From Sphaerolaimus hirsutus (taxonomy: Eukaryota; Nematoda; Chromadorea; Monhysterida; Sphaerolaimidae), in NCBI GenBank assembly GCA_964036195.1, contig OZ038450.1, positions 4,776,701 through 4,840,700 on the forward strand: a DNA stretch of 64,000 nucleotides, written 5' to 3'. The notes under the pieces were generated by a model. It did not search any database and had not been told where the DNA came from. It saw nothing but the letters and a program-made list of their open reading frames with translations. Every line of letters starts with the position of its first letter. Positions within the stretch are counted from its first letter, which is position 1. Shown piece by piece: positions 21,681-45,723 of the stretch. The position numbers and the translations under genes were made by a program.

Positions 21681-24600
21681 TCACAAGTGCACCATGCTGG
21701 CGGCGTGTCTGCTGCAACTGCGCTCCCCCTGTGTCTCTCTGTGGACTGTGGCTGAGGCAGGTTCACTTCTGGGGGCAGTCCCAGACCCTGTAAGATGTCA
21801 AATGTCGTGCAAAGTGTCTAAACTAAAGTCATGGTCAATGCCCGGTAAAATGGCATTTGCCATTTTACCGGGCATTTTACATGACTTTCGACACTTTGCG
21901 CGACATTTGACATTTTACAGGGTCTGGGACTGGCACCTACTGCCCTCGGCCGGCCCCGAACAATCCCCCCGTCCAGTGGCGACGCCGGTCGACTCGCTGC
22001 CGAGGTCGTCGTACTCTGGCGGCTTGTGCAGTTGCGCCGCCGCGATCGCCTGCTCGTAGCTGGGCGGCGCGTTCGCAGTGTGGGCGGAGTTTAGGTGTTG
22101 GTGCGCGCCGGGCGTCGGAACCACCGTCCAGCCGGCGCTTGGCTGAGGGGGAAATGGAGTTTTGTGGATTGGATAAATTATACGCCGTTTGGGCATTTGT
22201 GTTTTTGATACCCATTGGTGTGGGTCTTTTCAATGCATTATCCCCTATTTATGGTAAATCATATCTGGGTTAGATGCGACTAAAACATTTTTGTAATTTT
22301 CCTCATTCCTTATTGCTTGCCCGACGATTTCCGGAAATTTCAGATTACATGTGAGAATAAACGTTCTTCGAATAAGACCCCCTTGAATGACTCCCTCTCT
22401 TGAATAACTCCCCCCCTGCTGGCCGAGTGAGGAATGAATACCCTCCACCCTGAAAAACTCCCCACTCAGCGATAGGTGGAAAAGATGTTTGGCCAATTTA
22501 AAAACAAAAAAAAATACACTAGACAGCAACCATGTAAAAGATAAACACCTTCCCGGTCACGTCCGGCACCCTATTTTTGATCGTACTTGTGACACCCTAT
22601 CTCCAGTTCTAGGGCGCGCCAGAAGCTGAAACTTGGGGGAGGTATTGGTGCAACCCCCCTCTACTTCTCATGAATTAGGGGGGTCGCGGCGACTCCTCTC
22701 AGGGTGGGTCGCCCTAAGTGCAAATTTTTTTTTGCTTTTTTGGTGTCCCACAGCAGGTCCGGCACCCGCTTATTTCTGAACTGTGGGAGCGGTATAAATC
22801 TAAAATTTTGGGGATGTGTTACAGACACCACTCCCCTACTATACACTATTCAATCATGTGAGATTAACATGAAAAATTTCTCAAAAATTCGCTTATTCTC
22901 CAAAAAACACCACTCCCCAATAGATCGATGACAAAAATTCACTTTTTGGAACTTTTTTATTAGACACTTGAAGAGATGGTTTACAATACTTTAAAGGGAA
23001 GGGTTTGATGTTTAAAGTTATGTAAAGAACCATACCTCTAAAATGCATGCATTGCAAAATTTACTTGGGGGGATTTTCAAAGTGTAAATTTTGCAAATTT
23101 TTGTTCCTGCAATGATGTCATTATGACGTCATAAAATTCGCCCTAAGTAAATTTTGCAATGCAGGCCTTTTTGAGGTATGGTTCTTTACATAACTTTAAA
23201 CATCAAACCCTTCCCTTTTAAGTATTGTAAACCATCTCTTCAAGTGTCTAATAAAAAAGTTCCAAAAAGTGAATTTTTTGTCATCGATCTATTGGGGAGT
23301 GGTGTTTTTTCAGAGAATATGAGAATTTTTGAGAAATTTTTCACGTTAATCTCACATTATTGAATAGTGTATAGTAGGGGAGTGGTGTTGGTAACACATT
23401 CCCAAAATTTTAGATTTATACTGCTCCCACAGCTCAGAAATTAGCGGTTGCCGGACCTGCTGTGGGACACCACAAAAGTCTAAAAAAATTTAAAAACCAA
23501 TACCTCCCCCAAGTTTCAGCCTCTGGGGCACCCTAGAACTGGGGATAGGATGTAAGAAGTAAAATCAAAAAATGGGTGCCGGACGTGACCGGGAAGGTGT
23601 TTACATGTAAGTACAAACCCGTCCAAAAGGCGTGCCGATCACGTAAATCGTCTGCGGCTGGGCGGCCGCGTGCGCGTGCGCCGGCGATCTGCGCAGCACG
23701 GCGCCGCTGTTGCGCGAGTGGTTCGAGCAGCTCTCCATGCAGCCGTACACGCAGCCGCACAGCATCAACGACAGCACGCTGGAGGGGGGGGGGGGGGTTG
23801 GATGGTTGGTGTCTACTGATTCGGGGTGTGGTTAAGTGATGGGATAAGTGCTAAGTGGTAAGTCCCAAATACTAAAGTGGGAGTTTTTGGAAGACACCCA
23901 ATTCTCCCCCCTCCCCCAGTTTTCGTTACAGTGTGGGATAAAAGTTCCCCAGCCTGGACTTTGGTATTATAAGTTGTTAAATCGGAGATAATTTTCCTCC
24001 AAATTTACGTAGTGGCTGACTTAAATGCCACTTACCGTATATCCTCGAATAAGACCCCAGGGGAGTTATTTTTTCGTCAGAGTTTTTGAGGGGGGAGTTA
24101 TTCAAGGGGGAGGAGTTATTCAAGGGAGGGAGTTATTTTTTCCTCAGAAAATTTGGACTAAATTCATTGTGTGAATGCATTCTGTCAACTCATGTAATCC
24201 AGCTAACAACAACAAAAAGCTGTGTATACACGTACAAACAGTGTGTACACGCTATGTATCTGCTGTCGCTGCCATACGTCAACATTATTTTGTATTTTCA
24301 TCGATCATTTTTGTAAAATATGTAGCATATTTTCCGCCCAGAGTGGGGAGTTTTTCAAGAGGGGGGAGTTATTCAAGGGAGGGAGTTATTTTTTCGTCAG
24401 AGTTTTTGAGGGGGGAGTTATTCAAGGGGGAGGAGGGGGGTCTTATTCAAGGATATACGGTAGATATTATCCATGCCAATGCCAATTTTCGAATCTTTTT
24501 GTGCAGTTTTTGAATTTTGTATAGTTTTTGAATCTTTGGATTTTCGAATTTTTTTGAAAGTGAATCGATGTTTAAGTGTTTTTTCCAGGGGTGAAATAAA

Positions 24601-27600
24601 AATTCGAAAATTACGAAAAAATTCTAACATTCGAAAACGTTTTGGAATTTTCGAATCTTTTTTTGCTATCGATAGGTATATCTACCTAACTTTATATGTC
24701 ACTCACTGGCAACCTCAAACATTTCGTTCCGAAATATTCATCCATCGTCATGTAATTACTTTCCATATTTTCACGGTCGTAATTAAGTTTGTTAATTGCA
24801 AATATTTTCGAATTTTTCACCAACGCTTTTTCAAATTCCAAATTGAAGTGTCATATGTTTTAATGGTGGTGAAATGACAGGATGGCGCTGACGCCATTTT
24901 TGAACTCGGCATTTTTTTTAAATGGGACATTTTTCGAAAACGGCATTGGGGCGCGGCCGTGTCGCACGATATTACACAGCGAATGATTTTCTGAGGGGAA
25001 CCCATTATTTAACCACAGCGACTCGTAACCCATCGACTGGTAAGCCAAAGTGTATCAAGATTTAAGCCAAAGTGCCTCGTCTCTAAAGCCGCAGTCAAAC
25101 TTTTGACTTGTCACCAAAAGTGTGTCAGTATTTAACCCTATTGTGTCATTATTTAAGCCATGCGTACATAGTGCATATTTTGTGTCATTATTTAAGCCAT
25201 TTTTGTATAATGACAGTGAATACATTAGCGCACTGCCGCAGCTGAAACTACACAAATAAATGTGTTTACACGGAGACATAATGATACTTGTAATTTAGTA
25301 TTGAACAATGGAAAAAATATAAATAGATCTAGGTAACTTGTGAATTTGAGAAATATATTGCACCAACTTTCAAATGCAAAATAGTGATGAATAAATATGT
25401 ACTGGAAATTTTTTTTAAATAACGAATAATAATTGCCCACCATTACATTTGAAGGGTGTGCTTCTAAAAGTACAGATCTACAAATTTTTCAAATTTGAGT
25501 TAGGACCATTTTTGGGGTCCCCATAAAAATGCGCTTCAAAAATATACATATGTTATCGCCCATTTTACTGTTACGTGTAATTACTATATGACGTTATTTA
25601 AGGGGGATTGGGGGGTCACTTAAAAAACCGTGAGCTCTCGTCCCCACCGCAAAGTTCGCATTTTGATATAGTTGTTATATTCTCAATGTGTTATCGACTA
25701 CGATGCCTGGGCTTTTTGGTGCTGAGTTACTGTGTTTTACGCGCTAGTGACTTATTTTTACTTTTTGGTATTACCCTTTTGACGCGCGCCGGCAGAGCGG
25801 TAATAAAGTTGATTTGATTTGATTTGATATACATAATATGTGGGGGGTGCAAAATGCAATTTTGAGATTTGGGGGGTCAAAAAAAGCAAAAAAATCGCAA
25901 AATACAGTTTTTGAAATTTTAAAAGTACTGATCTAAAAGCTTTTTCAGCTTTTGTGTCTTTAAAAGTACCGATCTACACACTTTTTTCACAATTGTTCTT
26001 TTAAATGTACCGATCTGCACATTATTTTGTTGTGCTTCTAAAAGTACCGATGTCAGATTGGTGTCCGGTTGCGCAAAAACTCATTTTGTGCTTTTTTATT
26101 ATGGGTAACAGTACCGATCTACAGCTTTCTGATTTTGTGCTTTAAAAAATACCGATCTACACACTATTACCAATTTGTTACTTTAAAATGTACTGTACTA
26201 CAAAAATACAATTCCCTAAATTTTATATAGCTAGTGTTATGTGTATAATCAATGATTATACCCATGTATGTGGATACCCAACAATATGGCCAAAATACCC
26301 TTACCCAAAATTCCCATACCTAATACCCATGTATGGGTATTGCATGCTCCAAACTTTCAATCACAATTATCTCAAAATCGATTTTTTGTAGATCGTTACT
26401 TTTAGAAGCACACCCTTCATTTGTACCATTACGAAATTTTCTACGATCGACTTCATTAGCCAACCAGAAATTGGCCACGTGTCCACGCACATGTACTATG
26501 CATCAATTTTGTATGTGACCGTTAAGTATTTACGTGTATTGCGGCTTACGAGTCGACACATTGGCTTTAATAATGACACATTTTTTCGTGATCATTTTGG
26601 CTTGAATGTCGCTATACTTTGGCTTACCTAGCGAGGTACTTTGGCTTTACAGTCGATGGGTTAAATCTCGGGTAGCTTAAATCTCGCTATACTCTCTGAT
26701 TTTCTCCACTATCGAAAATTACAAAATCCAAGTGCCACTCCCAGACGCTGTAAAATGTCAAATGTAATGCAAAGTGTCAAAGGTCATGTAAAATTCCCTG
26801 TAAAATGGAAGACGTACGAAACCCCTTTTACAGGGCATTTTATAGGGTCTGGGAGTGTCCCCTGGTACTTTCCCTATAAAAAATATGATCATGCAATGTT
26901 CAACAATCAAAACTCACAGCATAATCAGCCAAAATATCAATGACGAGTCAACCATGGCGGCAAATCCGTGCCCAATTGAGACTGCAATAAAAATAGATTA
27001 AATTATAGTCTAAATAGCCAGTCAAATGTTAAAATCGAAGTTTCTGACGACAAAAAGTGTCAACCTTCAAAACTGACAACCTTCGAATCACACTTAAATA
27101 TTCTAGTCGTCAATTATGTAGGTGTTATTTTGCGCCGCAAAGGGCGGCCCACGTCACGGCGGCTTATGCAGTCGGTGATAAGAAGGGAGCCGCGCGGCTG
27201 GAAGCTTCTGTGTGAACGGAACGGCCGCCTTTGATGTTTGATTCAATGGTGAAGTTGGTCTGTTCGGAAAGTGGTGGGACAGGGGACTTTGTCTGAACGG
27301 TCTAACGAGTTTAGGATTATCTCAAGTGAAAAGTAATGTACAACATGCTGCCACGATCTTAGAAGTGAGAAGTAAAAGTTAACAGCCAAGTAAATTTAAA
27401 AGTGAGCAGTGAAATGATAGTGAAAAGTCTAAAGCAAAGTAAATTTGGAAGTGAGAAGTTACGAGAAAAGTTAAAAGTTTACTTTGCTTTTAACTTTTAA
27501 CTTCTCATTCCTAAAATGTTTTTTTTGCTTGTCCACTTGTGGAAATGACCCACTAATTTCAGAACAAACCAATCTTACTCTCAAATGACATTTGATTTGC

Positions 27601-30600
27601 AGTGAGGATTGAATCATTTTATCAAAATCTGAGAAATTGTCCAGGCAACAAACATCCAAAGGTTGACACTTCCGTTATATTTAGTCAGGCACTGAAGTGT
27701 TGCTTTTTGCACTCTTTTCCCTGTGCAAACAAATATTTATTTAGACAAAAGTTGTAGTCTGTCTAAAGTTGTAGTCAGGAAAATTTGATGCGCACAGTTT
27801 TCTTGTTATATTTGTCTAAAAATGGCCAGTAATACGTCAGTTTCGCGCTAGTGACTAAATAACAAAATATACACCTAACTAAATGGCGGCGCGCACACTA
27901 GGTGACATGTGCGGGTCTGTGTCAACTCAGATTTCAACTCATGTGTACAAGAGCGATCTCCAAATGCACATGACGCAATGTTGAAAAATAAATATTACGG
28001 CAAGAGCATACTGCATTGGAAGATCGCTCTGCCCCACGTGAAGCCGAAATCTGAGTTGACACAGACCAGTTGACAAACGTGCGTCAAACGGTGTGTGGGC
28101 CGCAGTTGGCAATAAGTAGGTACATATTTACGTAAACATATGCAAGTTACATAGGTAAGTGAACTCGACGAAATTTTTAAGTTTCTTTATTTTTTCTCAT
28201 CATGATCGATTCTAGGCTACTTATTTTGAACCACAATAACGGAAATTAGAGGCCAGGTATGCGACGGCACGCATTCAATTCTAAAAGTGCTGTTTGGTGA
28301 CAAAAAACAGCGTGCGTACTTGACCCGGCGGCCAGTATTCCTGTACATTGATTTTGGGAGCGTTTTACGTTTTGAAGTGTCGTTACCAAGGGCAGCGGGT
28401 TTGCTAGCGCGCCGCCGCGCGGTTTGACTTCGTGTCAAATTAGTGGATGATGGGTGCGCGCCATTTTTTTGGCGCTGGTATGGCGCTACTAGAGATGGTT
28501 GGACAATTTTATGATGCTTCTACTTTTATTGGAGATAACTTTTTATGTAGGTATTTAAGTATTCTTGTATTCGTTGTAGGGTCGGTGTGAGTTTATGGCT
28601 GAGCTGCATATATTCAGCATACCGTATTTCTTCTAGTGAGATACCTCTTATAGAAGGGCACCAACAATAGAACAGCAGGTTTTGGCACTTTATTTACATT
28701 TGGTTTTGTTTGAATTGATGCTCTGTTTTCAAAATGATGCATATGTTTCATTAAAAAAGTAAATACCATGTTCCAATGAATAATGTATGAAAAACATTGG
28801 TGAAAAAATAGAACGGCACCTTCAAATAGAACAGCAGGTAACAAAGTTTACGAAAAAATAGAACGGCGTTTTTCTATCAGAAGAATATTTGATGAATATC
28901 ATTAGTTGGTTCCAGATTGGCGGCGGTGATTGGCGCAAAAACAACGCCAGTTCAGGGCATTTTTCAAACGCCAGAAACGCGACTATATGACAACACCGTA
29001 CGCCTAAAATTATACCAATACCGGCTGATTTTTGGCTTCAGCATGTAGATAAAAACCGTGTTTAGTGGGGGGAAATTTATGTGAAATAAGCACGCAAATT
29101 GGTTCCATGCATTTTGTGTCGGTTGCAAAAACTGCGGTTGTAAATAAATTCTGTATTTATTTACACGCAGTCAAACTGGCAGCGATGAAATTTATACTTA
29201 CGCCCAATACAGGTATTCATGCCGGTTAATATCCATCGAATAAGACGTGAAAAATCTTTTATGTTCCTAGACATGATGCACGATTTAAAATATGTAAAAT
29301 ACACAGTATTATACAAACACCAAAATGATTCCAAAACTTGAATAAAAAAGGTGTGTAAAAACAGAAAACGTGTTTTTAGTTGTACAAGCAACGAGTGCAC
29401 ACAAAAACGGGCAGAACAAAAAAACTATCTGTACAATTACACAAGCCACATTGATTCACAACTTTTTCATATTTACATCACTAACGATGAGAACAGAAAC
29501 TTGAAAATTCAAAAACATTTGTGCAATTTTCGAATGTTTAGGCTATTTTAGGTAATAAATACAAATTGGATGCCCTAGGATAATATTTGTAAAAATGAGT
29601 ACACGGAAGTATCTGCAAGAAAATACGGAAAGCTGTCCCACAGCATTAGAATGTTTCAAGTTCAAACCTTCAGAATTCAGTGAAGATAAACTGAACACAC
29701 AGATGAATGATATAAATACCATGTTTTGATGATAAACGTCGCGTAAAAAACTGCACAAAATTCACCCAATGTGATAAATATGATGAGAATCCGTAAATGT
29801 TTCCTTTTATCTATGGGATATGGTAGATTTCATTGTAATGACGCTGGAGTTTACAAAAACCCAAAAACTTTTACAAAAAATCAAGGCATTTGAGATTCAA
29901 GAACTATTTTACAGGAACATAGTATTTTGAAAATAAAAAACACTAATGTAAAAACACTTAAAAATTCAAACACTTTTTTCAAACACCCCGCCATCACACT
30001 AGGTAAACCCATCACACGCCAGCGCCGCCACTGGAAATCTCCCTGTCCCGATAACTGCTTTGTTGACTGCCAGGGGGCAGTCCCAGACCCTGTAAAATGC
30101 CCTGTAAAATGTCATGCAGTGTCTAAAGTCATGGAAAATGCCCTGCAAAATGGCAAATCGGTTGACATTTTGCAGGGCATTTTCCATGACTTTAGACACT
30201 TTGCATGACATTTTACATTTTACAATGCATTTTACAGGGTCTGGGACTGGCACCAGGCTGCTGTTCCTCGATCACAGTGGGCAAGGTGGCCGCACTTCTG
30301 GTGCTGATCTTTCTCACCGCCAATTCATATGGGGGTGGCGCCAGTGGTGAACCCCTGTTTTGGGGTGAATTTTGACTATGTGCCAACGATCTGTGTACTG
30401 ACGGTGAGTGTGACTGAAGTTGGTTGTAGCTGGGTGGGTGGTCGGAAAGTTGGGAATCACTGTTGTTCCGGCTGTTGTTGTTGTTTGGCAGACGGCACCA
30501 TGGTCCATTTATGGTGGTCTGGAAAGGGGGTAAAAACTTGACAAACGCTCAGTCAGATAAATAGTTCTCCTTCAGTGAGGACAAAAATAGTCCTTCACTC

Positions 30601-31993
30601 CTGAATAGTGACATTCATCAGAGTCAACTGTCATCTTAACAGCGCACCATCAAATCAGATTGAAATTGAAGTCCAAAATATGAAAATTACGAGTTAGGCC
30701 CGGAAACATCATCCGGGGCTACCCCTGCACATTTTTAATTTTTAAAATAAACTTTTTTACCTCACATGCCCCTATACGATAGTGTCAATTTTGACATTTT
30801 TGGGAAAAATGAAAAAAAATGGCAAGAAGTCGACAAGTCCACTTAGTTTCGGGCTAAAAGTCGACAAGTCCATCCTCCGCATCCTTTTTTGTTGGGGAAA
30901 AAGTAAGAAATGTGATAAGTCCACTATGGGCACCGATTTCTAAAAGTCGACAAGTCCATAAATTGTCCATAAGGCAGCTTCATCGTCGTCAGGAACAAAA
31001 ATGTTCTCGCGTGCAGTAGTCGACAAGTCCATTTCCCTCCCCAAAACAGTTTTACTTTGTTTGTCCAAATGGAATTTTATGGACACCCCATTTTTCACAT
31101 ATACGTTAAGAGCAGGGGCTAAAAATTTGACACTTAATTGTCAACATATGGAACTTAATGGTGGGCATGAGAGCCAAATTGGACACGCACCAGGGACCTG
31201 AAACTAAAAATGCGATTTACTTAAAATCGCACTTTGTGGACTTGTTAAACTTTTAGAATTAGACGCCTCAATTAAATCACTCAAAAAGCCCGGCTAACAG
31301 CTCTAATCCTCTCAGAATGGGTCCTAGGTATAACAAAAACAGTGCCGCTGGGCACCCCGACACTAGCCGCGGCGGACATCCGCCTTCTCTGATTTATCCG
31401 CTCGTAATAACTCAATCTGGGGCCAATCCCAGACCCTGTAAAATGACCTGTGAAATGTCAAATGTCATGTCAAGTGCCTAACGTCATGTAAAATGCCCTG
31501 TAAAAATGTCAAATGTCATGTAGTGTAAAAAGTTGAAAGTGAAATGCCCTGTAAATGGCGAACTTAAGTTCACTGCATGCGAAAGTGACTTGGCACTTTG
31601 CATGACATTTGACATTTTCCAGGGCATTTTACATGACTTTCGACACTTTGCATGATATTTGACCGTTTGCAGGTCATTCTGCATGACTTTCGACACTTAG
31701 CATGGCATATTACTCTTGCCATGATTTATATACGGCATGACATTAAAATTTTTACATAGTATTTACATGACTTTAGACATTTTACATGCCATTTGACATC
31801 TTCCAGGTCATTCTCCAAGGCCCGGGACTGGCACCTGGGCGCGTACGCGCTCGACGCGGGACTGGTGCGAGTCTGGTTGACCTGGCTCTGCGTATAGCTG
31901 GGGTATTGGTTGGCCGCGTCGGGCAGGAGCACGTGCATGCCCAGGCAGCACAGGGCGCACAGCACGCACAGGATGGCCACGATGGCCGCCATG
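21681..31993 (-). CDS. Candidate PPxY-tailed membrane protein (partial, tentative)
   Basis: Not assigned to a family. Four phase-compatible minus-strand exons: 31835-31993, 23619-23778, 21937-22142 and 21681-21768 (stop TGA at 21683-21681). The first encodes a hydrophobic helix (MAAIVAILCVLCALCCLG), then a hydrophilic stretch with an NQT sequon. The second starts VLSLMLCGCVYGCMESC, a short hydrophobic Cys-rich segment, and continues QPQTIYVIGTP. The third holds two PPxY motifs (PPSYEQAIA, PPEYDDL), which recruit WW domains of Nedd4-type ligases. The layout resembles WBP1/VOPP1, Shisa or four-helix PPxY adaptors. N-terminal exons were not found. Two of the introns start with the GTGCC end of a hairpin element. 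The last exon is weakest; GC-rich sequence at 30260-30330 could be another exon on either strand. Confidence 0.45.
21771..21937. mobile_element. Hairpin element (GTCCCAGACCCTG family)
   Basis: Starts GGGGGCAGTCCCAGACCCTG and ends CAGGGTCTGGGACTGGCACC. The two halves form a near-continuous hairpin through ATGTCAAATGTCGTGC-type words. On the minus strand it reads GTGCC...CCCCCAG exactly between two candidate exons of the PPxY gene, so it could be spliced as a GT-AG intron. Confidence 0.85.
22543..23602. mobile_element. 1.06-kb near-perfect palindrome
   Basis: AAACACCTTCCCGGTCACG at the left is repeated inverted as CGTGACCGGGAAGGTGTTT at the right. The arms stay complementary (GGTGTCCCACAGCAGGTCCGG and many others) to a centre near 23070. 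TA flanks both ends. No transposase frame. A third partial copy at 45724-45907 runs into the assembly gap. Confidence 0.9.
24034..24461. mobile_element. CCGTATATCC-ended inverted repeat, TA flanks
   Basis: ACCGTATATCCTCGAATAAG at the left and CTTATTCAAGGATATACGGT at the right, with repeated GGGAGTTATTCAAGGG blocks near each end. TA at both junctions. A relic of the same family (TTGAATAACTCCC) lies at about 22370-22470. Confidence 0.85.
25000..26700. repeat. Nested inverted repeats with an inner GAAGGGTGTGCTTC element
   Basis: Outer arms (about 25010-25200 and 26530-26690) share TAAGCCAAAGT, TAACCCATCGACTG and their complements. The inner element runs from GAAGGGTGTGCTTCTAAAAG (25452) to CTTTTAGAAGCACACCCTTC (about 26419) and contains repeated AAAAGTACCGATCTACA units. 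No gene. Confidence 0.7.
25670..25831 (+). mobile_element. Possible LINE 3' end
   Basis: GCGCGCCGGCAGAGCGGTAA followed by TAAAGTTGATTTGATTTGAT: a non-repetitive stretch closing on a short (TTGAT)n tail, as in 5'-truncated non-LTR retrotransposons. It sits inside the inner element of 25452-26419. No reverse-transcriptase sequence remains. Confidence 0.35.
26732..26862. mobile_element. Short hairpin element (GTCCCAGACCCTG family)
   Basis: TGCCACTCCCAGACGCTG at the left and AGGGTCTGGGAGTGTCCC at the right, with ATGTCAAATGTAATGC inside. The right flank is CCTGG; no clear left duplication. Confidence 0.75.
26945..27885. other. Gene-free spacer
   Basis: No exon that I can support. 27100-27250 is GC-richer than its surroundings but has no frame with recognisable protein. 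27300-27500 contains AAGTGAGAAGTAAAAGTT-like degenerate repeats whose complement (ACTTCTCA, ACTTTT) reappears at the left edge of the satellite near 49340. Confidence 0.5.
27888..28105. mobile_element. CACACTAGGTGACA-ended inverted repeat
   Basis: GGCGGCGCGCACACTAGGTG at the left and GGTGTGTGGGCCGC at the right. Inside, TGTCAACTCAGATTTC occurs in both orientations. Same family as 21130-21350. Confidence 0.75.
28621..28890. mobile_element. ACCGTATTTCTTCTAGT-type element
   Basis: Left end ACCGTATTTCTTCTAGTGAG; AATAGAACAGCAGGT words inside; right end near TTCTATCAGAAGAATATTTG. A shorter, cleaner relative is at 37051-37167. Confidence 0.55.
28900..30065. other. AT-rich gene-free spacer
   Basis: Low-GC sequence without splice-bounded frames or recognisable repeats, apart from scattered GGCGC words near 28920-28980. 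Confidence 0.45.
30075..30252. mobile_element. Hairpin element with CCAGG duplication
   Basis: Flanked by CCAGG at 30070-30074 and 30253-30257. The ends are GGGGCAGTCCCAGACCC and GGGTCTGGGACTGGCA. The arms GTCATGGAAAATGCCCTGC and GCAGGGCATTTTCCATGAC are exact complements around a short loop at about 30160. Confidence 0.88.
30690..31260. repeat. Scattered GTCGACAAGTCCA repeats
   Basis: GTCGACAAGTCCA occurs at about 30828, 30858, 30946 and 31019, with variants (GTGATAAGTCCAC). It is not a regular tandem array. No gene found in the interval. Confidence 0.5.
31421..31832. mobile_element. Expanded hairpin element, 412 bp
   Basis: Left end GGCCAATCCCAGACCCTG, right end GGCCCGGGACTGGCACC. The interior repeats GTCAAATGTCATGTAAAATG and complementary GCATGACATTTGACATTTTCC words more often than other copies, as if it were beginning to expand in tandem. 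It lies directly after a candidate minus-strand exon end at 31835 (CAG then GTGCCAG). Confidence 0.8.
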
Positions 31994-32045
31994 CTGCGGC
32001 GCGGTGGTAAGGCCGATTATGGCGAGAGTGGCGCTTGGCACCAGG

Positions 32046-32207
32046 TGCCAATCCCAGACCCTGTAAAATGTGAAATGTCATGCAAGGTGTAAAAAGTCAT
32101 GGAAAATGCTCTGCAAAATGGCAACCGAGCTGCCATTTTGCAGGACATTTTCCACGAATTTTGACACTATGTATGACATTTCACATTTTACAGGGTCTGG
32201 GACTGCC
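32046..32207. mobile_element. Hairpin element with CCAGG duplication, plus orientation
   Basis: CCAGG at 32041-32045 and 32208-32212. The ends are TGCCAATCCCAGACCC and GGGTCTGGGACTGC. Read on the plus strand it is CAG then GTGCC...CCCCAG then GG, i.e. GT-AG bounded between the two target copies. Confidence 0.88.
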
Positions 32208-32409
32208 CCAGGGGAGTTGTGCTGGGCTGATGCTAATTTCTCGACGTTTTTCACTACCACTAGGTAGGTTCGACATTGCCAGACAGATAGATTACAACCT
32301 TTTAAGATATGAATACGCTTTTGGCAGGTCAGACTCACATTATGAGAAGGATGGTTTCCACTTCCGAGACGGAATCCATTTTCGAAACTGGAAGCAGCAC
32401 GATTGGACA

Positions 32410-33170
32410 CGAATAGGTAATAAATTGTCTTATGAACGTTTCTTATAATACACGAAGCGTTCTTTTGTCAAGTAAAAACACGCTTTAACATGAATACTTT
32501 CTCACAGAACAGTGTCAAATCGGCACGTGAAGCGGGAGCGGGGTCACACAGCCGGTGATAAGCTGATAAGCACAATTGCAGTGCCACCATTCAGCATGTT
32601 TGCCCAAAATATTTTTTGTTCTAAGCGGACGATTTAATGACGTTTTAGTCACGCCCATATCAAGGCGTTATTTTCGCTAATTATTTGCATAAGCAGCGAA
32701 AACGCACATGGATGCGGCACAAAAATCGAACGCTTGTTGTTTTTGAAAAGTGCGCAGGTTTTCTTTTGGGGGCTAAATTAATTCCATCTGAGATCGTAAA
32801 AATGGCTTGTCTGTAACAACTTTACAGTCGAAAATAGGATGAAGTATTATAAGTTCAAGTTTACCTCACTACATTGACATGAAGATGAATGCTTTAACTT
32901 TTTCGGATCATTTGAAGTGGTAAACGATGAAAATCGGTAGAGGATTGCCGAAATATTCTCATGAGGCCGACAGAGGGGGAAATCAGGGGGAGGGGGCAAT
33001 TCAAGGAAGTCATAAAATGAACGCGCGAACGTGTCGTGTTATCTACACACTTTGTAGCTTGCGGTAATTTGGCTTAAAATTTGCACTGCCATTATAAAAT
33101 TTATCAATCGAGCAATGTTATGGTAGCACATCAACAACGTTAAGCACAACCTAGATTAGAAAATACCGTA
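32410..33170. other. Gene-free spacer
   Basis: No supported exon. An open stretch at about 32270-32415 (+) ends at a GTAATA donor-like site, but its protein (with HFRDGIHFRNWKQHDW) matches nothing I know and is compositionally odd. Confidence 0.4.
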
Positions 33171-33386
33171 TTTGCTTGAATAATTCCCCGGTTAGACGAG
33201 TGAGGACAAAATAATCCCTCCATTAGGTACAATTTGAACAAAAATGGCATGTCAATAAAAGCGTATTTTGCGAAATTAGTTGATAAAACATGCTAGAAAA
33301 ATTTGACGAAATTTTGACCCTCCCTTGACGAGTTTCCCCATCTGAAAACTTATTCCCCAGGGGAATTATCAAAGCAAATACGGAAA
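33171..33386. mobile_element. CCGTATTTGCTTGAA-type inverted repeat
   Basis: ACCGTATTTGCTTGAATAAT at the left and ATTATCAAAGCAAATACGG at the right, with CCCCGG/CCCCAGG next to them. Confidence 0.75.
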
Positions 33387-33450
33387 AACGTGTTCAGGGT
33401 TGTCTTAAAAGCAAATCTGTCGCTCAGCAGTAGGTTTTGAACATATAGGT

Positions 33451-33471
33451 GCATATATATATATATATATA
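33451..33471. repeat. (AT)n microsatellite
   Basis: About ten AT repeats, followed by TTTATACATATACAAGC. Confidence 0.9.
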
Positions 33472-33597
33472 TTTATACATATACAAGCACGGAAATATAC
33501 GTCGGATCACCCTTGGTTTTTTATTCAAATCACATGTACGTTCATCACGGCGAACACAAATCGTCATTCTCAAAAGAAAAATCACAAAAATTCAACC

Positions 33598-34271
33598 ACC
33601 GTATTTCCTCGAAATACCCCCAGGGGGTTTATTTTTTCGCCAGCAAATTTTGAGGGGGGTAATTCGAGAGAGGCTTGATCAAGGGGGGATTTCAATCAAT
33701 ATTTTATCCTCAACTCGCTCGGACCTGGTGGGTATTTCGTGGGGGGGGGGGGTATAATCAGAGGTACCGTATTTCTCTGTTTATAACACCCGGGGGTTAT
33801 ACAAGATTGGAGCAATTTTCAGCGAACTTTTTGAAAACTTGTATAACACCCGGGTGTAGGTCAATGGGGGTGCTATACATGGAAAAAAACTTCAATCATG
33901 GTATTCATGACTTCTAACGTTAACACGGTCACAATACGTTGTAGTTCTGTAATTGTAGTACATTCTACATTAACATCGTATTTATGACTAAATAAGAGCG
34001 TTAAAATTCCCGTGTTCTTTCATTTTTTAAATACCTACAAACGTCCCTACATATTTTTTTGTTACCAGGGCACAGTTAATTCAATGGAAAAAAATGTGCG
34101 TGCTTGCCGTGCCGCGGAATTACAATGAGTGGCGGCGCCACACACAATATTTAAACCATTCAAATCGAGCCATTTTTTGAAACCTAGCATAGCACCCCCG
34201 GGGTGCTATAAAACTATACAACACCCCGGGTGTTATGCACGGGGGGGGTGCTAAAAAAGGAGAAATACGGT
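33598..34271. mobile_element. Two CCGTATTT-type elements side by side
   Basis: A truncated copy begins ACCGTATTTCCTCGAAATAC (33598). A second runs from ACCGTATTTCTCTGTTTATA (33766) to AGGAGAAATACGGT (34271), with TATAACACCCGGGGG blocks in both orientations. They lie just 3' of the last ITFG2-like exon recovered. Confidence 0.75.
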
Positions 34272-34304
34272 AATACGGCAAATCTGTACTAACAAGCATA
34301 TCAC

Positions 34305-37300
34305 CGGTCGACCAACTGATCGATGTCGAAGCTGTACATGAATATCAGGTGGTCGTGCGTGGCCACCAGCACGGACACGCAGCGGCGGCGCAGCGCGCAC
34401 AGCGCCGTCGACATGTCCGCCCTGCGCGAGTTTCAGCGCTAAAGTGCGCATCCGCGGACACCAAAACACAGACGTACGCTCCGCGATTTTGGAATCGAAA
34501 ACTATAAAAGCGCGCGATATATCCGACTAAAATGTTAGGCACCACCTCTGCATCGATTGAGTACTTATAAATAACAGTCTGTTTTAAGACCCCGGGCCTA
34601 GCGCCCACCAACATTTTCACACGGGATTTAAGGAATTCTATCAGACGTTTTACAGGGTGCGGTACAGCACGGGTACGCTACTATATGCAAACAGTTAGAG
34701 ACTTTTCAAATACTTTACATTCTCACGCCAATTAATATATACCCCCCCCCAAGCAAACAACGGTACACTACCCCCCCCCCCAACAAAAAAACACCCCCAT
34801 CAGTCACCTTAGCCTAATTCTGGCGTCAGGAAGTCTGGCATGCCCCCCGCCAATTTTGCGCCCATCCGCAGCTTCGCTGAGGTCGGCCTCGTCGCGCAGC
34901 AAGTAAATGTAAGCGACGCCGCTCCAAACTCCGATCTGATATGTGTTCGGTTACAGGTGAGGGATTGAGGGCAACACAGTTGACGGGAGTGCGCTTGGGA
35001 ACTGGACCGGAGAATTACATACGCAGTGAGCAAATTGACAAATGATAAAAGTGCTGGAAAAAAACCTATGGGAATGATCAAGAGACAGGAATCAGATCTT
35101 GGAAACAATGACAACCTTTCAGCGCGTTATTCATAGTTTTTGGCATTTCGGCTCTTTGTCCCCACTTTTATATAAAATGGTTTAATTTTACTCCATTTTG
35201 TCAATTTTCACCTTCAAAATCGGTATTGTCGGCTATATACACGGTCATAAACCCAGTTTTAACCCGTATTGGCTACTTTTAACGTAAAAGAAAGCCGATT
35301 CAACTCTGACAAAGTACTCACAATGATGAGCGTGGCGTCTTTGGGCGCGCCGGGCTGCAGACTGGCGGAGAAGCGCTCGGCGTGCACGAAGCTGGCCATC
35401 GATTGGTCGTCGGGCCACCGCAACTGCACCGCGTCCGGCTGCGAGATCGCTCGCAATCGAATCGAGTGTGGAATTGAGTAATAGAGAATTACTGCTCTAT
35501 AATCGATCAGACGATCTCTATAATCGATCAGATTACTGATGTGCAGACGCTACTACGGCTGTGCAAAGCGGAGAACACGGTGTTTTCGCGAAAAATGACT
35601 GTAACCGGATAACTAGTCATTTTCGAGCAAAGCAACCCACCACTCACTACTATTGACCCGCCTATCATCTAAATCGACCCAGACTGATTCTGAACGCATA
35701 GGATCTAGACAACAGACCCAAAGATACGCAAACCTACCTGCACGATCACTTTCGAAGCGGCCACGCCGTTGCACAGGCAGGCGGCGCGCGCCCGTCTCGG
35801 CACAAACACGCAACAGTCTTCGTGGAAAATGCCGAATTCGTCCAGGGGGCAGTCCCAGACCCTGTAAAATTTCAAATGTCATGCAAAGTGTCAAAAGTCA
35901 TGGAAAATGCCCTGCAAAATGGCAACTCGGTTGCCATTTTGCAGGGCATTTTCCATGACTTTTGACACTTTCCATGACTTTTGACGCTTTGCATGACATT
36001 TGACTTTTTACAGGGTCTGGGAGTGGCACCAGGTGCTGCTCGTTGAGACGTTCCACGAAAAGGGACGCCTCGCTGGACGCGGCAGGTTTCTGGTGGTGGG
36101 AAAATTGTGGATACCTAATTAAATTACACTAGATAGGATATTGAAAATGGGCTGTTTCGGAATGTAAATATTTGGGCTTGTACGGAAATTCTGAGACACC
36201 TTTCTATGTGGGTAGTTTTTCAGTGAATGTGATTGAAAAACCAACAAATGATTCTTCGAGTTCACATTGCATTTGGTTACTTTATTCAACAAAATACGGT
36301 ACCAGTCTCTGACGGCATGCAGTCCGATCAGTGAACTTGTCACTTGACGTAACAGTCACCACTTTTCAATCACTCGATTCCTTTAGAACGCCCCCCCCCC
36401 CCCTAAGGTGCACGGTACAGTAAATTTCCAAAATTGCGGTAAAATTACGGTAATTTTCCAAATTCACGGTACGGTACAGTAAATTCTGCCATCCAAACCC
36501 CCTTCAACCTGTTCACTCTGCACTGCACCCTCAATCTCCTTGTGCGGCCACTGCAATCGAACGCACTGCGGCGACAGCTGAGACACTAGCAGGGCGCTGT
36601 GGGCGAGCGCGATGGCGGTCACGTGCTCGGGCAGCTCCCACTTGTTGGTCGGCACCAGCCAGCCCACCGAGGGCACCGAGCTGTTCGACGCGTCCACCTC
36701 GTAGCGATACGAGCGCACGATGCGGTCTGAGGTTGTTTTGGTGGGGGGGGGGGGTGACTAGGATTTACAGCTCGCTGATGGGGAGAAAAGCGCATTTTAG
36801 TGTTTTTCAGCTAGGGTTGGAAGAAAACGAAACTAGTTTTCAAGTGTGGATCAGTATTTTACAGGAAAACGACATATTTCAAATTAGTTTTAATTTGAAA
36901 TGTTATTTTGAAAAAATTGAATCGCCAATAAAGATTTGAATAGTCCTTTTCAATAATTCGCATTTTAACACACTTTGGAAGAATGATAATGCCGCTCCAC
37001 ACACAGCGATTTTTAAAACAAGTTCGAACGTTTTTCAGCAAAGTATGAATACCGTATTTCTTCTAATAGAAGAGCTCCGTTCTATTTTTTTCGTCAACCT
37101 TCAACAGAACGGCAGGTAAACAAGTGGCAAAAAAAGAACGGCGCTCTTCTATCAGAAGAAATATGGTATTCATACTTTGCTAAAAAAACGTTCGAACTTA
37201 TTTTTAAAATAGCTGTGTCGAGCACCAAATACCAGTTGACCGACGCCGCGTCGAAAGTGTGTAGCACATCAGCTAACATAAAAACATCAATTTAAAAACC

Positions 37301-39856
37301 AAATTCACATCAAACAAACCGCTTAATGCAACAAGAAGTTCGTTGCACCCATCTCCGTCCACATCCACAACCAGTGCGGAACAAATGTTAGCCACGAGTC
37401 TTTGTCTAAATCGTTGGCGACATGCCAAGGCCACGTTTCGTTTTCTGCCCCCGTCCGCTCCAGATAATGTGCACGCGTAGTCCGCAGTTAGACAGTACGC
37501 CGTCAGAGCTGAGAATATATAGGTAGTAGAAAACAATTGAACGGCCTCGGGCGTATTTAGATACGAAGCTTTCTATGAATCAGGGGTTCAGTGGGGGGGG
37601 GGTTGGGGGGTTACCCCCCCCCTAAACGCTCAAGCTATCTATCTATCCCGAGGCAATTGTTTGACTACCATCCCTCGAACCCCACTGCTATGAATGACAA
37701 TTGTTTTTCAACGGATCTTAATTAAAAATCTGATAAAGAGACAGAACACCACATGAACTTCTACATCGAACGCCAATATGTATCGATTTACTGAATCGTA
37801 TTTTGCAAAATTTCATCGCGGTTATAATGGGCCAGGCCTCCTACGCACAAATGCCTGGTACGCACAAACGCCCGGTACGCACAAAATTGTGCCCGCCACG
37901 CACATCTGCCCGGTACTTACATGGCTGATGATCTTTGCGTACCGGACAGATGGTCACTAATGTGATTGCACAGCTTTTTTCACTTCACTGATATCTGAAA
38001 ATCACTTGAAAAAGTGTCAAGTGAAAAAAACGGTCAAAAATGGCCATTATCCACTTGACACTTTTTCAAGTTATGTTCAAATATATGTGAAGTGACAAAA
38101 AGTTAACTAATGTCATTACACAACTTTTTTACACTTCACTCACAAGTGTGAAGTGAAAAACACGCTCAAAATGTAATGTAATGTTATTTCGTATAGGGTA
38201 GATGTGCGTGGCGGGCACATTTTTGTGCGTACCGGGCGTTTGTGCGTACCAGGCATTTGTGCGTACAAGTGCACCGCCGTTATAATCCCTTATTATTGGG
38301 GGTGTAAATTTTTTGTCCAACCCTAGTCCGGACCATAACGTCACGGCGCCGCAACATCAATGCAGCCAGCACTAGGGTTCAAACGGGCCCGCGGTATCGG
38401 TACATGGTTCGGCAAAAAGTCGGGGCTGGGGCGGTCCCGGTCCCGACATTGAAATATTTCTGGCCCCGGTCCGAAAAACTGGTCCCGTTTGAACCCTAGA
38501 CAGCACCCATAAAAACGACATCAACCCAAATCAATCCACCCACGCCGACGCACATCCATCGGCCGTGATAGCGACCAAAGTCGTGCAGCCGATAAAATCG
38601 CCGGCCGCGCGCACATCAGAGCAACCCGACTGCGGCAGCGGGTTATCATTGAACTAGGGACACTCCCAGACCCTGTAAAATGTCCTGGAAGATGGCAAAT
38701 GTTAAACAGGGTGTCAAAAGGAGCCTGTGCCTCTGCACGTTTACCCACTGTGCATGTCAGGGGTATTCTCCAGGGGGTTCGATAGATGGCTAATCGACCC
38801 TCTGGAGGGATATATAGCTGGAAAAAATTTTTTGGGAGGTTTGGGGGTTCGCGGGGGTTTTAATATATAGGCTTTTTCAAGATGTAGAAAAAAGGTAGAA
38901 AAATCGCTACTAGTAGGTGAAAAACTAGAAAAAATGGGTATATACGCACATATGCTACAAAAAAATAGCTGAAAATAGACAATGAAACACATGAGCTAGT
39001 GATTTTGAAGGTGAAAATCTATTTAAAAAAGTATGAAGTCTGGCTATCTTGAGTGAAATTTAGGGTCTACATGTGCACATTTACATGCACAGAAGGGCTC
39101 AGTCGTCAAAAGTACTATAAAATTCCCTGGATAATGGCAACAATTTCAACGGCACTTTCATCATTTTCGGCACTTTGCATGACACTTGACATTTTCCACG
39201 CTTCAAACACTTCGCATGACACTTGACACTTTCCAGGACACATTTCACAGGGTCAGTATGGGAGCGGCACCAGGTCACCGTCTGCCAGCGCGGCTACGAC
39301 GGCCGCGTCGCCGCTGGCGCTGGCGGAGGCCACGGGCATCACGGCGCAGCACTCCACGCTGGCCGGGCACATGGCCCACGGGGTGAAGCACTCTTTGAAC
39401 AGGATTAGGCGACCTGGGGGGGGGGGGGGGGTTGAGGGCGTGTTTGGGTTTTGTACGGTGGGATTGTTTAGAAGTCGTTTGACTAGAAACGTTCGACTCT
39501 AAATAGAACTACCCTTGCCATTTTGTAGGGCATTATCCATGACTTTAGACACTTTGCATGACATTTGACATTTTACAGGGCACTTTACAGTGTCTGGGAG
39601 TGGCACCTTAAATCTCACATGACATTAAACATGTCACCACAAAACCACAAAGCTCGGTCGCGCTCACCAGCCCTGGTTCCGACGGCGGCCACGCTGGGCC
39701 AGTGTTCCCCCCCGGCGCCAACGTCCTCCGCGAACCGGTGTAGCAGCGAGCGCACCAGCAGAATGGACTGGATGGCCGGGTGGGCGGAGTCGTGCGTGGC
39801 CGCGTAGGCGCCCGCGTCGCTGCACCCGCGCGCCACCGAACACAGCTCGAGCATGG
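34305..39856 (-). CDS. ITFG2: ITFG2-like beta-propeller protein (KICSTOR subunit type)
   Basis: Minus-strand exons in order: 39668-39856, 39271-39413, 38554-38629, 37320-37508, 36509-36726, 35738-36089 (contains a 182-bp insert), 35322-35438, 34808-34935, 34305-34421. Phases agree at every junction. Diagnostic parts: GRLILFKECFTPWAMC, LVAITADGSLTAY, the FG-GAP-type motif DVDGDGCNELLVALSD, then RIVRSYRYE and NKWELPEHV with SALLVSQ, matching human ITFG2 (DIDGDGC, DRVVRAFRWE) in order. ITFG2 is part of KICSTOR, which brings GATOR1 to lysosomes in amino-acid control of mTORC1. About 410 codons recovered against about 447 in human; the last exon is missing and the start (ATG at 39854-39852) is unproven. 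The exon 35738-36089 is 165 nt and in frame only if the hairpin element is removed, so this allele may be broken. Confidence 0.78.
35847..36028. mobile_element. Hairpin element inside an ITFG2-like exon, TSD CCAGG
   Basis: CCAGG at 35842-35846 and 36029-36033. The ends are GGGGCAGTCCCAGACCC and GGGTCTGGGAGTGGCA; the hairpin arms meet near 35930. Removing the element and one CCAGG (187 nt) restores a 55-codon exon joining NEQHL to DEFGIF. Confidence 0.9.
36379..36500. repeat. C-run and GGTACAGTAAATT inverted words
   Basis: A 14-C run, then GGTGCACGGTACAGTAAATTT and GGTAATTTTCC words repeated directly and inverted up to the end of the ITFG2-like exon at 36509. Confidence 0.5.
37019..37201. mobile_element. 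Palindrome around ACCGTATTTCTTCTAAT
   Basis: AAGTTCGAACGTTTTTCAGC with GCAAAGTATGAAT is repeated inverted at 37168-37201. Between lie ACCGTATTTCTTCTAATAGA and TCTATCAGAAGAAATATGGT. ITFG2-like intron. Confidence 0.75.
37581..37687. mobile_element. 107-bp hAT-type MITE, TSD CTATGAAT
   Basis: Ends CAGGGGTTCAGTGGGG and CCCTCGAACCCCACTG, flanked by identical CTATGAAT (37573-37580, 37688-37695). Retains only the end regions of the family at 3307-3794, including GCTATCTATCTATCCCGAGG. Confidence 0.93.
37818..38296. repeat. Long inverted repeat with GTGCGTACCGGGC arms
   Basis: GGTTATAATGGGCCAGGCC and repeated GGTACGCACAAA words at 37818-37925 are inverted at 38195-38296 (TTTGTGCGTACC ... GCCGTTATAATCC). 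The middle contains AAAAAGTGTCAAGTGAAAAA and its complement. ITFG2-like intron. Confidence 0.75.
38373..38498. mobile_element. 126-bp hAT-type MITE (TAGGGTTCAAACGGG family)
   Basis: Inverted copy of 17828-17957 with ends TAGGGTTCAAACGGGCCC and GGTCCCGTTTGAACCCTA. Flanks GCCAGCAC and GACAGCAC (7 of 8 match). Confidence 0.88.
38657..39270. mobile_element. Hairpin element interrupted by a hAT-family fragment
   Basis: Left part GGGACACTCCCAGACCCTG with ATGGCAAATGTTAAAC (38657-38720). The right part resumes at about 39110 and ends CAGGGTCAGTATGGGAGCGG. In between is CAGGGGTATTC... sequence of the 3307-3794 family (38757-39015). The minus-strand ITFG2-like exon 39271-39413 ends exactly at its GTGCCG end. 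Confidence 0.75.
39513..39608. mobile_element. Half hairpin element
   Basis: Only the right arm remains: GCATGACATTTGACATTTTAC through GTCTGGGAGTGGCACC. ITFG2-like intron. Confidence 0.75.
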
Positions 39857-42056
39857 CTGCAGGGGGTTTGCGATTACGACTTTTGGCACTGTGCCAAGGT
39901 GTGATTTCTGGTTTTGGGCGAGTTTTCACGGGAAAAGGAAAGTGTAAATGTTGGCGCAGAAATATGCGAAGGCAAATTGAATGATAGTGTACGAAAATTG
40001 CATTTCAGGAGAAAATTCTCGTAATTGACACATTTACAAAATTATGACGGGACACGGGCCGATTTCGTAACATTTTCTTCTAAAATGAACATTTGGATAC
40101 TATCACCAGTAAAAGTTATTACGCTATCAAAACAGATTGCTAAATTTTGCGCCCAGCCCGGTCAAATGCCCGCTTTGTAATCTTTACCAGCCGTATCGTT
40201 ATCAGTAGTTTCAGCGAATCACATCTTTAGTGGTGGTAAATAATATTTAGAAAGTGATGAGGCATCATTGACCAGGAAGTCTGGACGCGGCTCGCCAGTC
40301 ACTACAAAATTTTTTTTGATTTTGAGCAGTACTTTTTTGAACAATGTCGATCCAACGGGTAGCTATCATCACAGGTAATTTATTGTGGGTTGTTTATTTT
40401 GTATCCTGGGTGAAAATTTCTGAAAACTTGGAAATATCGTAGTGGAATATGAAGAATTGAGAAATGTGCTTTTTTGGAACGCCGACACAAAACATGCGAC
40501 TTGGCGCCGGCGTGGCGCCATTCCCAACTCATGTAAACATTTCCACTCAGAAATATCATTTCATCGTTGTAAAAGCTGGCGCCGGCTCCAAAAACCTGGC
40601 GCTTTTTCCATCACGTCATCAATACCACAATCTTTTAGATAAACTGGACAGACAGATCGCTACACAATGAATTATATCATATTTTGATGTAAATATAAGG
40701 TCACCCAAAGTGGTAGCAGTGTGACGATTGACGAATATGAATTGAAAAAATCAGAGTTGTTAGAATTACTGAACTTTTTTCGAAAGTATATGTAAGTATT
40801 TTATTTTTACTCATTACAAAGTATAGGAAATGTAAAATACTTTTTTCTCAAATACAAATAAATTGAAAAAGTGAGTACTTTTCCTCTGGAAAACGTATTT
40901 TTACACTAATTTTTACATGTGCGAGTGAGTTTTACACTGAAAGACACAATATGTCATTTTCTACAGATTATTTAGTATTTTTAGAAAAATTATATGATTT
41001 CTTCAAGGCTGTCTTATTTTAGCAACAGAAAATTGTGAGTTTAGCAACAAAAATACATTTTCTCTGTACGTGTGTACTTTTAAAATGTACATTAGAATGT
41101 ACAGTAAAAGTAAGTACCTACATTACTTTTTGAAAGAAGTATATGTAAATGTATTTACGGCGTACTTGCGTACGCGTATTTTTCGAGTAAATGTACGTAC
41201 ATTTTAACAACTGTGGGAAAAATCTAATGTTTGTTATTTTATTCAGATGGGATATGGTAGATTTCACTGCAAGGTGTAATGTGGCTGGAGTATACCGTCA
41301 AAACACCAAACCAACAATTCCCCACAGGCTCTAGCAGCGGCATCGGCCGCGCCACTGCACTAGCATTCTGCAGGGAAGGCATTTCCCCTGGCGGCTTGGT
41401 GCTGAATGGCAGGAATGCTGACAGGTTGAAATCTGTTGTGGATGAGTGTGCCGCGGCGGGCCAGAGAAGGGAGAATGTTGGTTTTGTGTTTCTAATGATC
41501 CAATTCTGTTGTTCTTTCACAGTGGTGGATGTAAATCAATACCTAGACATATTTTCTAACATACCTTATCTGTAGGTTTTAAACTAGAATTCAGTTAGAG
41601 CTTTTTGGCGCCGCGCCACTCATCACCAACTGAATATACATGGTAGAATATACCCGCGATGCCATTTACCCCTCATGTTGTGGCGTGAATTTGGCAGCTC
41701 CATAGCGAATTTGGCACGAAAATTCTCGCGTTTTAGAAAAATAAATTTTTCAGTCGTGCCAAAATAAATATGCAGATTTTATCCGTGGTGGCCGATGTTA
41801 GCAAAGCTGAGGACAGACAACGTTTGGTGGATGAAACGATCAAGATGTTCGGTCGCTTAGACATTCTAGTCAGTGTATTTTCATTCATTATCTATCAACT
41901 GATCATTTTTCAACGACATTCTTCATGCGAGCTCAACATGACCAGGTAAACAATGCGGGCACGTGTGCGAGATACATTTCCATCAACTGCTAGTCTGGAA
42001 CAATTTGATCACGCCATGAATGTGAATGTTCGCGCGTGAGTTGTTTTCAATACAGT

Positions 42057-42151
42057 GATGTGAAAAGCGCCAGGACTTTGGCGCCAAGCGCCAAAAGCGC
42101 CATGGTGCTTTTTCGACCCTCAGCGCCAAGCGCCAGCGCCGTGGCGCTTTT
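42057..42151. repeat. Small inverted repeat with GTGAAAAGCGCC ends
   Basis: Begins TGTGAAAAGCGCCAGGAC and ends CGTGGCGCTTTTACAT. Relative of 4113-4211. SDR3 intron 4. Confidence 0.5.
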
Positions 42152-42876
42152 ACATTACTATTTCAATATCAATATGCGTGAATCCGACACTGAACCGCGA
42201 ATTTGGCACTGTTCCAATGACACCTTTATGATGCTACTGCTACACCTGCAACTGCTACGAAATTGCAGGGTAGCAGCGCTGACACAGCTGTGCATTCCGC
42301 ATTTGAAGAAAGCCGCCCCTTCAAACATAGTCAATGTCAGCAGTGTGGCTAGCTTTTATCCCAGGCCATTTTTGGCATTCTATTGCATGTCAAAGGCGAC
42401 ACTTGACATGTATGCGAAATGCTTGGCTGCGGAAATGGGCCCATTTGGAGTGAGAGTGAATAATGTCAGGTTAAATAGTTGGGTTGTAGAGTGCTTACAT
42501 ACCCTATTTAGGTTATGGGAATGTTTGTCACAGGTTTTTTTTCGCGAGAATGAATCCCTTATCCGAGTGAAATAAATCCCTTATGCAAATGGAAGACATT
42601 TTATGAACCATGCAAATGTTAATTTTGAAACCAATAGTATTTATAAACTTCGGAATTTTTAGTATTGAACCACGCCATTGGGGGCCATTCAGGAAGACAG
42701 TATTTCTAAATTGCTCACGTTATTATTTATCATATTATATTTACTTTTTGCCACTGATACGTAGTCCTGCGATCGTTGACACGCCATTTGCCGAGAGGGC
42801 CGGTGCCACTACTGAACAGTGGAATGAGGTGTGTTTGATGATAATTAATATACCTAGGTAGGTACATGAATGGATA

Positions 42877-43502
42877 TCGTATGTCCTCGAAATACCCTCA
42901 GGGGGTTTATTTTTCCATAGTGCAAATTTTGAGGAGGAATAATCGAGGGAGGGGGTATTTCGAGGGGGTGTATTATATTGCCAGAATTTTCTAACGTAGA
43001 TAAATAAAATAAATATAGAAAAATAGAAAAAAGTCGCAGTTGCAGCATAAAGACTCACCTACCGTATTTCCTCGAGTTACCCCCGGGGGTTTATTTTTTC
43101 AGAGTGAAAATTTTGAGAGAAAAACGTGAAAAATGCAACAATAACCACCATTTATAAGTTTTTACAGCCTTATATAAGGATGTAGATGGTAAAAACGATG
43201 TTCTAACGTAACACAGTAAGTGTTTTGAACGTCCGTTATGCATTTCCAGGACCAGAAATTCATAGTGCCCATTTTGAGGGGGGGGGTATTTCGAGGAAAT
43301 ACGGTATATAAGTATGTAGATGGTAAAGGCCCCGTCCTAATGTAATTCAATCATTGTTTTTAATCTGTGTTCTGCATTCTTTGGCAATTACATTCCCTCT
43401 ACATAAATTTCGGGTGGCAGTATTCCGAGGGGGTCTATTTATTCATAGTGAACATTTTGAGGGGGGTTATTTGAGGATAGGGCATTCCCAGGAAATACGG
43501 TA
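42877..43502. mobile_element. Cluster of CCGTATTT-type elements
   Basis: A partial copy (42877-43000), one complete copy (43061-43305, ACCGTATTTCCTCGAGTTAC to CGAGGAAATACGGT) and a third that shares its right end at 43502. SDR3 intron 6. Confidence 0.7.
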
Positions 43503-43976
43503 TATAAAATCGCCACACATGCAAAATATGTAAATACATATTATAAATAAAATGGGCCCACTTTTGTATTTTAAAATACTCAGACAAACTGAAGTGAAAA
43601 ACATAACAACAGTTCACTTGATTATGCAAATTTCACACATGAATATGTTCTTCTCTCATATTTCACCCAAACAACTCTACATGGAACCAACTACCTACCC
43701 AAATCTGAACTCTAACCAATACACAAAGACAAAAACATTTTCCTCACCACCTAAATAACTTGAACTGCCAAACCACAGATGGTGGCAAATGTGCAAAAAT
43801 TGTATCCCATGGGCAGGATGGGGCAGCCAGAGGAAATTGCCAATATGATAGTGTTTATTGTTGGTGAAAAAGGTGCCACTTTCAGTACTGGACATTTGTT
43901 TATAGCTGATGGTGGATTGTTGTGTTCAGCTAAATAGGTTGAATATTTGAGGTTCTGTTATTAGAATGGTGATACT

Positions 43977-45690: not shown

Positions 45691-45723
45691 GTTGGATGGA
45701 GGATTGGACGTTTTTACTACTTA

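Follow-up and report, generated by a model that had tools for sequence, protein, structure and literature searches.

A hairpin DNA transposon of Sphaerolaimus hirsutus that probably acts as an introner

Introners are non-autonomous repeats that are inserted in exons; many of them have inverted ends and a short duplication of the target, and they carry one splice site and co-opt the other from the duplication (PMC9860276, Gozashti et al. 2022). The origin of new introns is a long-standing question, and introners are rare in animals, the portion of the survey drawn on here reporting them from two animal groups only, with copepods named (PMC9860276). In the dinoflagellate Amoebophrya, introners form hairpins, have direct repeats of 3-5 nt at the exon borders and use noncanonical, highly variable splice sites, according to the sections cited (PMC7789003). 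Noncanonical GA and GG donors have been described in lineage-specific introns of a copepod (PMC5714493), and GT-TG introns are known from rare human cases, one of which is given in the cited excerpt as a tissue-dependent alternative (PMC4176328). Among DNA transposons, NuwaI of PHIS is described, in the cited part of its report, as having a CWG duplication and an inverted repeat that usually starts with GGG, and as occurring in animals that include one crustacean (PMC4482050).

The stretch analyzed here (the window) is 64,000 nt of the nematode Sphaerolaimus hirsutus (C1:4776701-4840700), and it holds several copies of a repeat that compares with each of these systems. Like the introner of Chrysochromulina, the repeat would carry the 5' site and co-opt the 3' site, and it differs from the introners covered in that part of the survey by its CWG target, its long near-perfect hairpin and its 3' TG insertions (PMC9860276). 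With the Amoebophrya introners, as excerpted, it shares a hairpin and short direct repeats over the exon borders, whereas its GT side is constant in the sampled copies, which were chosen by their GT end, and at its 3' side AG or TG predominates (PMC7789003). The CWG duplication is that of NuwaI and one end is GGGGC; unlike NuwaI, the second end starts with GTGCC, and the intron role that we propose is absent from the NuwaI description as far as the cited part extends (PMC4482050). As in the human GT-TG introns, a putative TG 3' splice site would be combined with an ordinary GT donor, but unlike the single human cases in that excerpt, TG would arise systematically from CTG targets (PMC4176328). 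No title among the literature matches listed, which were open-licence papers, pointed to an introner that targets CWG or belongs to the NuwaI type. Taking the evidence below together, we infer that the element is probably (at roughly 0.84) a non-autonomous DNA transposon, a NuwaI-type hairpin MITE in the PHIS/Harbinger superfamily, acting as an introner whose transcripts are spliced. An autonomous NuwaI partner is recognized by a DDE transposase and a Myb/SANT protein.

The element is mostly 140-200 bp long, forms a hairpin and has unlike ends, GTGCC at one and GGGGC at the other (GGGGCAGTC at one end, GTGCCAGTC at the other). Its terminal 20-mer has 13 matches in the window at ≤3 mismatches, as compared to a shuffle mean of 0.01, and a scan of the whole assembly (348,482,957 bp, ~348 Mb) with a 28-mer of the GTGCC end revealed at least 8,786 near-matches (4,452 + 4,334; ≤3 mismatches), with 0 for the reversed control. 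All 100 listed copies with an exact GTGCC end were fetched, of which 98 were distinct after L017 and L044 were dropped; this sample, from about 8,800, consists of young copies by virtue of the exact match, taken first in contig order from one assembly. The other end was recognizable within about 420 bp in 80/98, longer copies being missed, and the median length was 168 for the 73 copies with ≤3 mismatches at that end. Inverted ends and a target duplication, the marks of transposition, are present in the sampled copies, and the GC content of their flanks is about 0.52-0.53 versus 0.42 in nearby sequence. The RNA of one copy, E35, was folded, resulting in a near-perfect predicted hairpin (-129.7 kcal/mol, z -18) in which the internal CCTGTAAAA and TTTTACAGG are paired and both ends are left at the base. 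An Rfam search of the window at gathering scores gave no match.

The flanks of the 98 distinct copies show a target duplication of 3 bp, mostly CWG, inside a palindromic CCWGG preference, with C preceding CWG in 44/70 and G following it in 44/70. The initial annotation had taken the target to be 5 bp; a CCWGG duplication of that length was rejected, given that the duplication is confined to the inner 3 bp. When a shift of ≤2 bases was allowed, which favors agreement between the two target copies, 80 pairs were scored as CAG/CAG (38), CTG/CTG (15), CTG/CAG (6), CAG/CTG (2) and rarer combinations; without a shift the corresponding numbers were 28, 14, 6 and 2 (n = 73). Both copies are thus CAG, or both CTG, in 53/80 with the shift and 42/73 without it. 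The excess of CAG/CAG over CTG/CTG is significant in either case (38 to 15, p = 0.002; unshifted 28 to 14, p = 0.04), and the asymmetry among the discordant pairs (6 CTG/CAG versus 2 CAG/CTG, p = 0.29) is suggestive only. Exact 22-mers counted over the whole genome show a mild preference for CAG at the 5' side (686 versus 587 for CTG, p = 0.006), a count that is blurred by copies with two GTGCC ends; the 3'-side CAG count is 815. Two of the discordant copies in the sample, L037 (CCG/CAG) and L040 (CGG/CAG), have the same flanks and lie ~8.3 Mb apart on C2, a duplicated insertion, and are not independent.

Five copies in the window (E21, E30, E31, E35 and E38) each split an open frame of the minus strand in a three-frame reading, and GTGCC comes first in 5/5 of these candidate exons, at the ends that the initial annotation had named and that were confirmed on the minus strand (Table 1). 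Removal of the element together with one target copy restores a frame that runs on across the far side in 5/5. Two of the proteins predicted in the window have PPSY- or PPPY-type tails. A Pfam search of the joined window exons found no family near its cut-off, with two sub-threshold matches in one of them (E ≥ 0.89); therefore, their status as exons rests on frame, splice-like borders and the PPxY-type tails, and the evidence from conserved genes was drawn from copies elsewhere in the genome. Open frames cross E32 on both strands.

Table 1. Element copies and putative exons in the window (positions count from the first base of the window; sequences are given in the reading of the strand stated; a caret marks a putative exon border)
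Feature	Positions	Strand	GTGCC end	Remarks
Putative exon after E21	21681..21768	-		Terminates in TGA
E21	21772..21936	-	21932-21936	TAG^GTGCC...CAG; target copies 21937-21939 (TAG) and 21769-21771 (CAG), minus reading; GT..AG unit
Putative exon before E21	21937..22142	-		PPSYEQA and PPEY motifs; CCCTCAG ahead of 22142
E26	26732..26861	+		Flanks CAA and CTG; AT-rich surroundings, no recognized gene
Putative exon after E30	30012..30070	-		Terminates in TGA
E30	30074..30253	-	30249-30253	CTG^GTGCC...CTG, no AG; splits putative exon of PPSY/PPPY-tail protein
Putative exon before E30	30254..30518	-		PPSY and PPPY motifs; TTTCCAG ahead of 30518
E31	31420..31834	-	31830-31834	415 bp; CAG^GTGCC...CAG; GT..AG unit
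Putative exon before E31	31835..31992	-		ATG, then hydrophobic stretch
E32	32045..32208	+		CAG/CAG; GTGCC first on plus strand; no recognized gene or exon there
Putative exon after E35	35738..35842	-		CAG^GTAGGT at its end
E35	35846..36029	-	36025-36029	CTG^GTGCC...CTG, no AG; near-perfect hairpin
Putative exon before E35	36030..36089	-		Acceptor-like CCACCACCAG
Putative exon after E38	38540..38653	-		Frame shared with exon before E38
E38	38657..39270	-	39266-39270	614 bp; CTG^GTGCC...TAG; GT..AG unit
Putative exon before E38	39271..39413	-		Acceptor-like poly-C AG directly ahead
Half element	39518..39606	-		Single GTGCC end; inner limit approximate; lies within putative intron whose flanking exons end at ~39668 and start at 39413

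To place copies in conserved genes, a Pfam scan was carried out on 86 copies (52, then 34), on both strands, with every frame of ≥60 aa that crossed the rejoined site and E ≤ 0.01; a few of the 86 had no such frame, and the 3' ends of the first 52 were set less strictly, several being doubtful (e.g., L009, L011, L039, L049, L051). Eleven informative domains span the insertion point, and GTGCC is 5' in the sense of the gene in 11/11, for which the one-sided chance is 2^-11, or 2^-7 for the seven matches above the Pfam curated cut-off alone. These seven are L018 (permease), L026 (AMP-binding), L055 (GT92), L065 (Mon2), L073 (PDZ), and L098 and L106 (both 7tm_1); below the cut-off are L056 (polymerase alpha/epsilon subunit B, E 4.3e-6), L057 (DOMON, E 2.8e-6), L068 (DUF1679/EcKL, E 2.7e-5) and L071 (HNOBA, E 0.0019). 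L105, the paralogue of L106 and sampled on the antisense strand, was left out of the count because it has GTGCC at both ends. Outside the 11, sense frames picked by eye gave phmmer matches that span the junction for L067 (SND1) and L025 (NSUN6) and one that stops 9 residues short of it for L022 (SIRT6), and phmmer found no match for the sense frames of L031 and L053. Pfam matches on one side of the junction were in sense for L025 and L101 and antisense for L020 (GDT1, starting 26 residues past the junction), where the element possibly lies within an intron. A codon-usage model, for which 1,062 codons served as the training set, was set aside as too weak: at threshold 8 it called 16/87 sites (13 sense, 3 antisense) versus 4.7% of 360 random locus positions, its antisense calls being L090, L105, which has two GTGCC ends, and L026, which Pfam places in sense, and at threshold 5 it also placed L018 on the wrong strand.

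The initial annotation had raised the prospect of a bias in exons toward the CCAGG orientation of the sense strand. The strand of the element is indeed non-random, and the preference for CCAGG is unclear, with a 5' target copy of CAG in 6 and CTG in 5 of the 11 (CTG on both sides in 3). The orientation also bears on the proposal that these are ordinary MITE insertions disrupting or truncating the genes they enter, so that the exon borders would be mere insertion points and the copies deleterious or in pseudogenes. CTG/CTG copies that end without AG, and E30, for which the range searched yielded no in-frame GT-AG pair, are consistent with such damage, but the proposal predicts random orientation in exons as opposed to 11/11 in sense, and with the GPCR paralogues described below we regard it as very unlikely. 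PIF/Harbinger elements are capable of precise excision, and somatic removal from the DNA, rather than from RNA, would give the frame back and would take out CTG/CTG copies as readily as CAG/CAG copies. Excision of DNA is, however, blind to the sense strand and therefore leaves the 11/11 orientation and the CAG/CAG excess unexplained, which makes it the least probable of the explanations considered here. With ends that coincide with exon borders and an orientation compatible with splicing, the element appears to work like an introner in the tested set.

In CAG targets, the borders agree with the GT-AG unit that had been noted earlier, GTGCC...CCCCAG, in which GT comes from the element and AG from the target copy. 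Among the 11 exonic copies, the 3' side has AG in 7 (L026, L055, L056, L065, L071, L073, L098), and terminal AG is absent in 4, where the 3' side is CTG (L018, L057, L106) or CGG (L068). The two target copies read CTG (5') and CAG (3') in L026 and L065, and CTG and TAG in the window copy E38; in all three, it is as if the 3' target copy had been changed to AG. Two further features count against the introner model: GTGCC is a weak donor, and TTTTACAG is upstream of the terminal CAG, so that scanning from the branch point would reach it before the CAG.

The latter feature is relevant to an alternative in which splicing occurs through internal sites of the repeat, from GTAAAA to TTTTACAG, and leaves short extra coding pieces behind. 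Both sites are within the inverted repeat, and a search for GT-AG alternatives that reached 36 nt ahead of the junction and 45 nt past the element found other internal GT sites that, with TTTTACAG, are in frame and free of stops; they add 51 or 63 nt in each of L018, L057 and E35, or alternatively 75 nt in the first two. The consensus pair GTAAAA-TTTTACAG, however, leaves 37 nt and is out of frame, as counted on the sequence; the nearest in-frame pair at the two GPCR paralogues costs at least 16 exon nt and replaces conserved residues of TM6; and the search over this range found no in-frame GT-AG pair in E30. In addition, the alternative makes no prediction of a 3' CAG, and GTAAAA and TTTTACAG are base-paired in the predicted hairpin. 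Splicing through internal sites is, in our view, unlikely.

Under the introner reading, the 5' splice site would come from the GTGCC end (CWG^GTGCC) and, in CAG targets, AG from the target copy downstream (CCCCAG^G), such that the precursor mRNA would read CAG^GTGCC...GGGACTGCCCCCAG^G. With GT contributed by the element and AG by the second copy of the target, splicing would restore the original exon. A long RNA hairpin could bring the two ends together and bury the internal GTAAAA and TTTTACAG sites, and the better-looking internal sites would go unused because they are paired, as judged from the one copy that was folded. In CTG targets the unit would end in TG, and it could either be spliced as GT-TG or be tolerated, with weaker internal sites in use, until a mutation converts the 3' copy to AG; this change from CTG to AG would be a path from transposon to canonical intron. 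Because the CWG target is palindromic, half of the exon insertions are expected to end in CTG.

The fate of such CTG insertions can be followed in L105 and L106, tandem GPCR paralogues about 72 kb apart with a common CTG/CTG insertion in TM6. Their exons before the GTGAGT donor differ in 12 codons, 8 synonymous and 4 non-synonymous, and downstream of the insertion there are 4 synonymous and 0 non-synonymous differences; these ratios speak against gene breakage, with the proviso that the numbers are small and that a loss of function may not yet show in duplicates of recent origin. A functional GPCR needs the element to be removed because the read-through frame meets TAA inside it, and exact removal is limited to GT-TG, GG-CT, TG-CC, CT-AC or TG-GG along the repeated CTGG. 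The shared insertion with a conserved frame hints at GT-TG splicing, and the sense orientation of CTG copies argues that their GT is used. It is possible, if somewhat short of even odds, that the spliceosome removes CTG insertions as precise GT-TG introns, aided by the hairpin, and that selection then turns TG into AG. The element of L105 has GTGCC at both ends, so that end types are exchangeable, perhaps via conversion between the hairpin arms. The initial annotation had held insertions in the CCTGG orientation to be simply harmful, which does not agree with CTG/CTG copies in sense orientation in conserved domains and with the conserved frame of the GPCR pair. Its introner-like reading is supported for the orientation of the element and the GT-AG unit in CAG targets, and support is lacking for the 5-bp target and the necessary harm of CCTGG.

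Judging from these sequence features, the thousands of copies of the hairpin element look like a live source of new introns. Because young copies with readable targets are found in conserved animal genes, the birth of an intron, what it costs and how a proper 3' splice site is gained become measurable. If CTG insertions are indeed spliced as GT-TG, the AG requirement at the 3' splice site would be bent on a genomic scale, and GT-TG splicing followed by TG-to-AG change would constitute a visible pathway from transposons to canonical introns.

Other features of the window were recorded. Two short-chain dehydrogenase genes are on the plus strand (18128-19766 and 41300-43936), and the introns of the second look canonical GT-AG. 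The best solved matches of the SDR protein are three short-chain reductases of C. elegans. An array at 11899-12374 (plus) has GTGCC each 27-28 bases, or a multiple thereof, and is open in one frame. An N run at ~45905-46110 marks an assembly gap, and 48000-64000 is an AT-rich satellite in which a 14-bp spacing is nested with one of about 600 bp and the GC skew is strong (-0.17 to -0.215). Another, larger inverted-repeat set is located at 22542-23609, with a further copy at 45718-45830.
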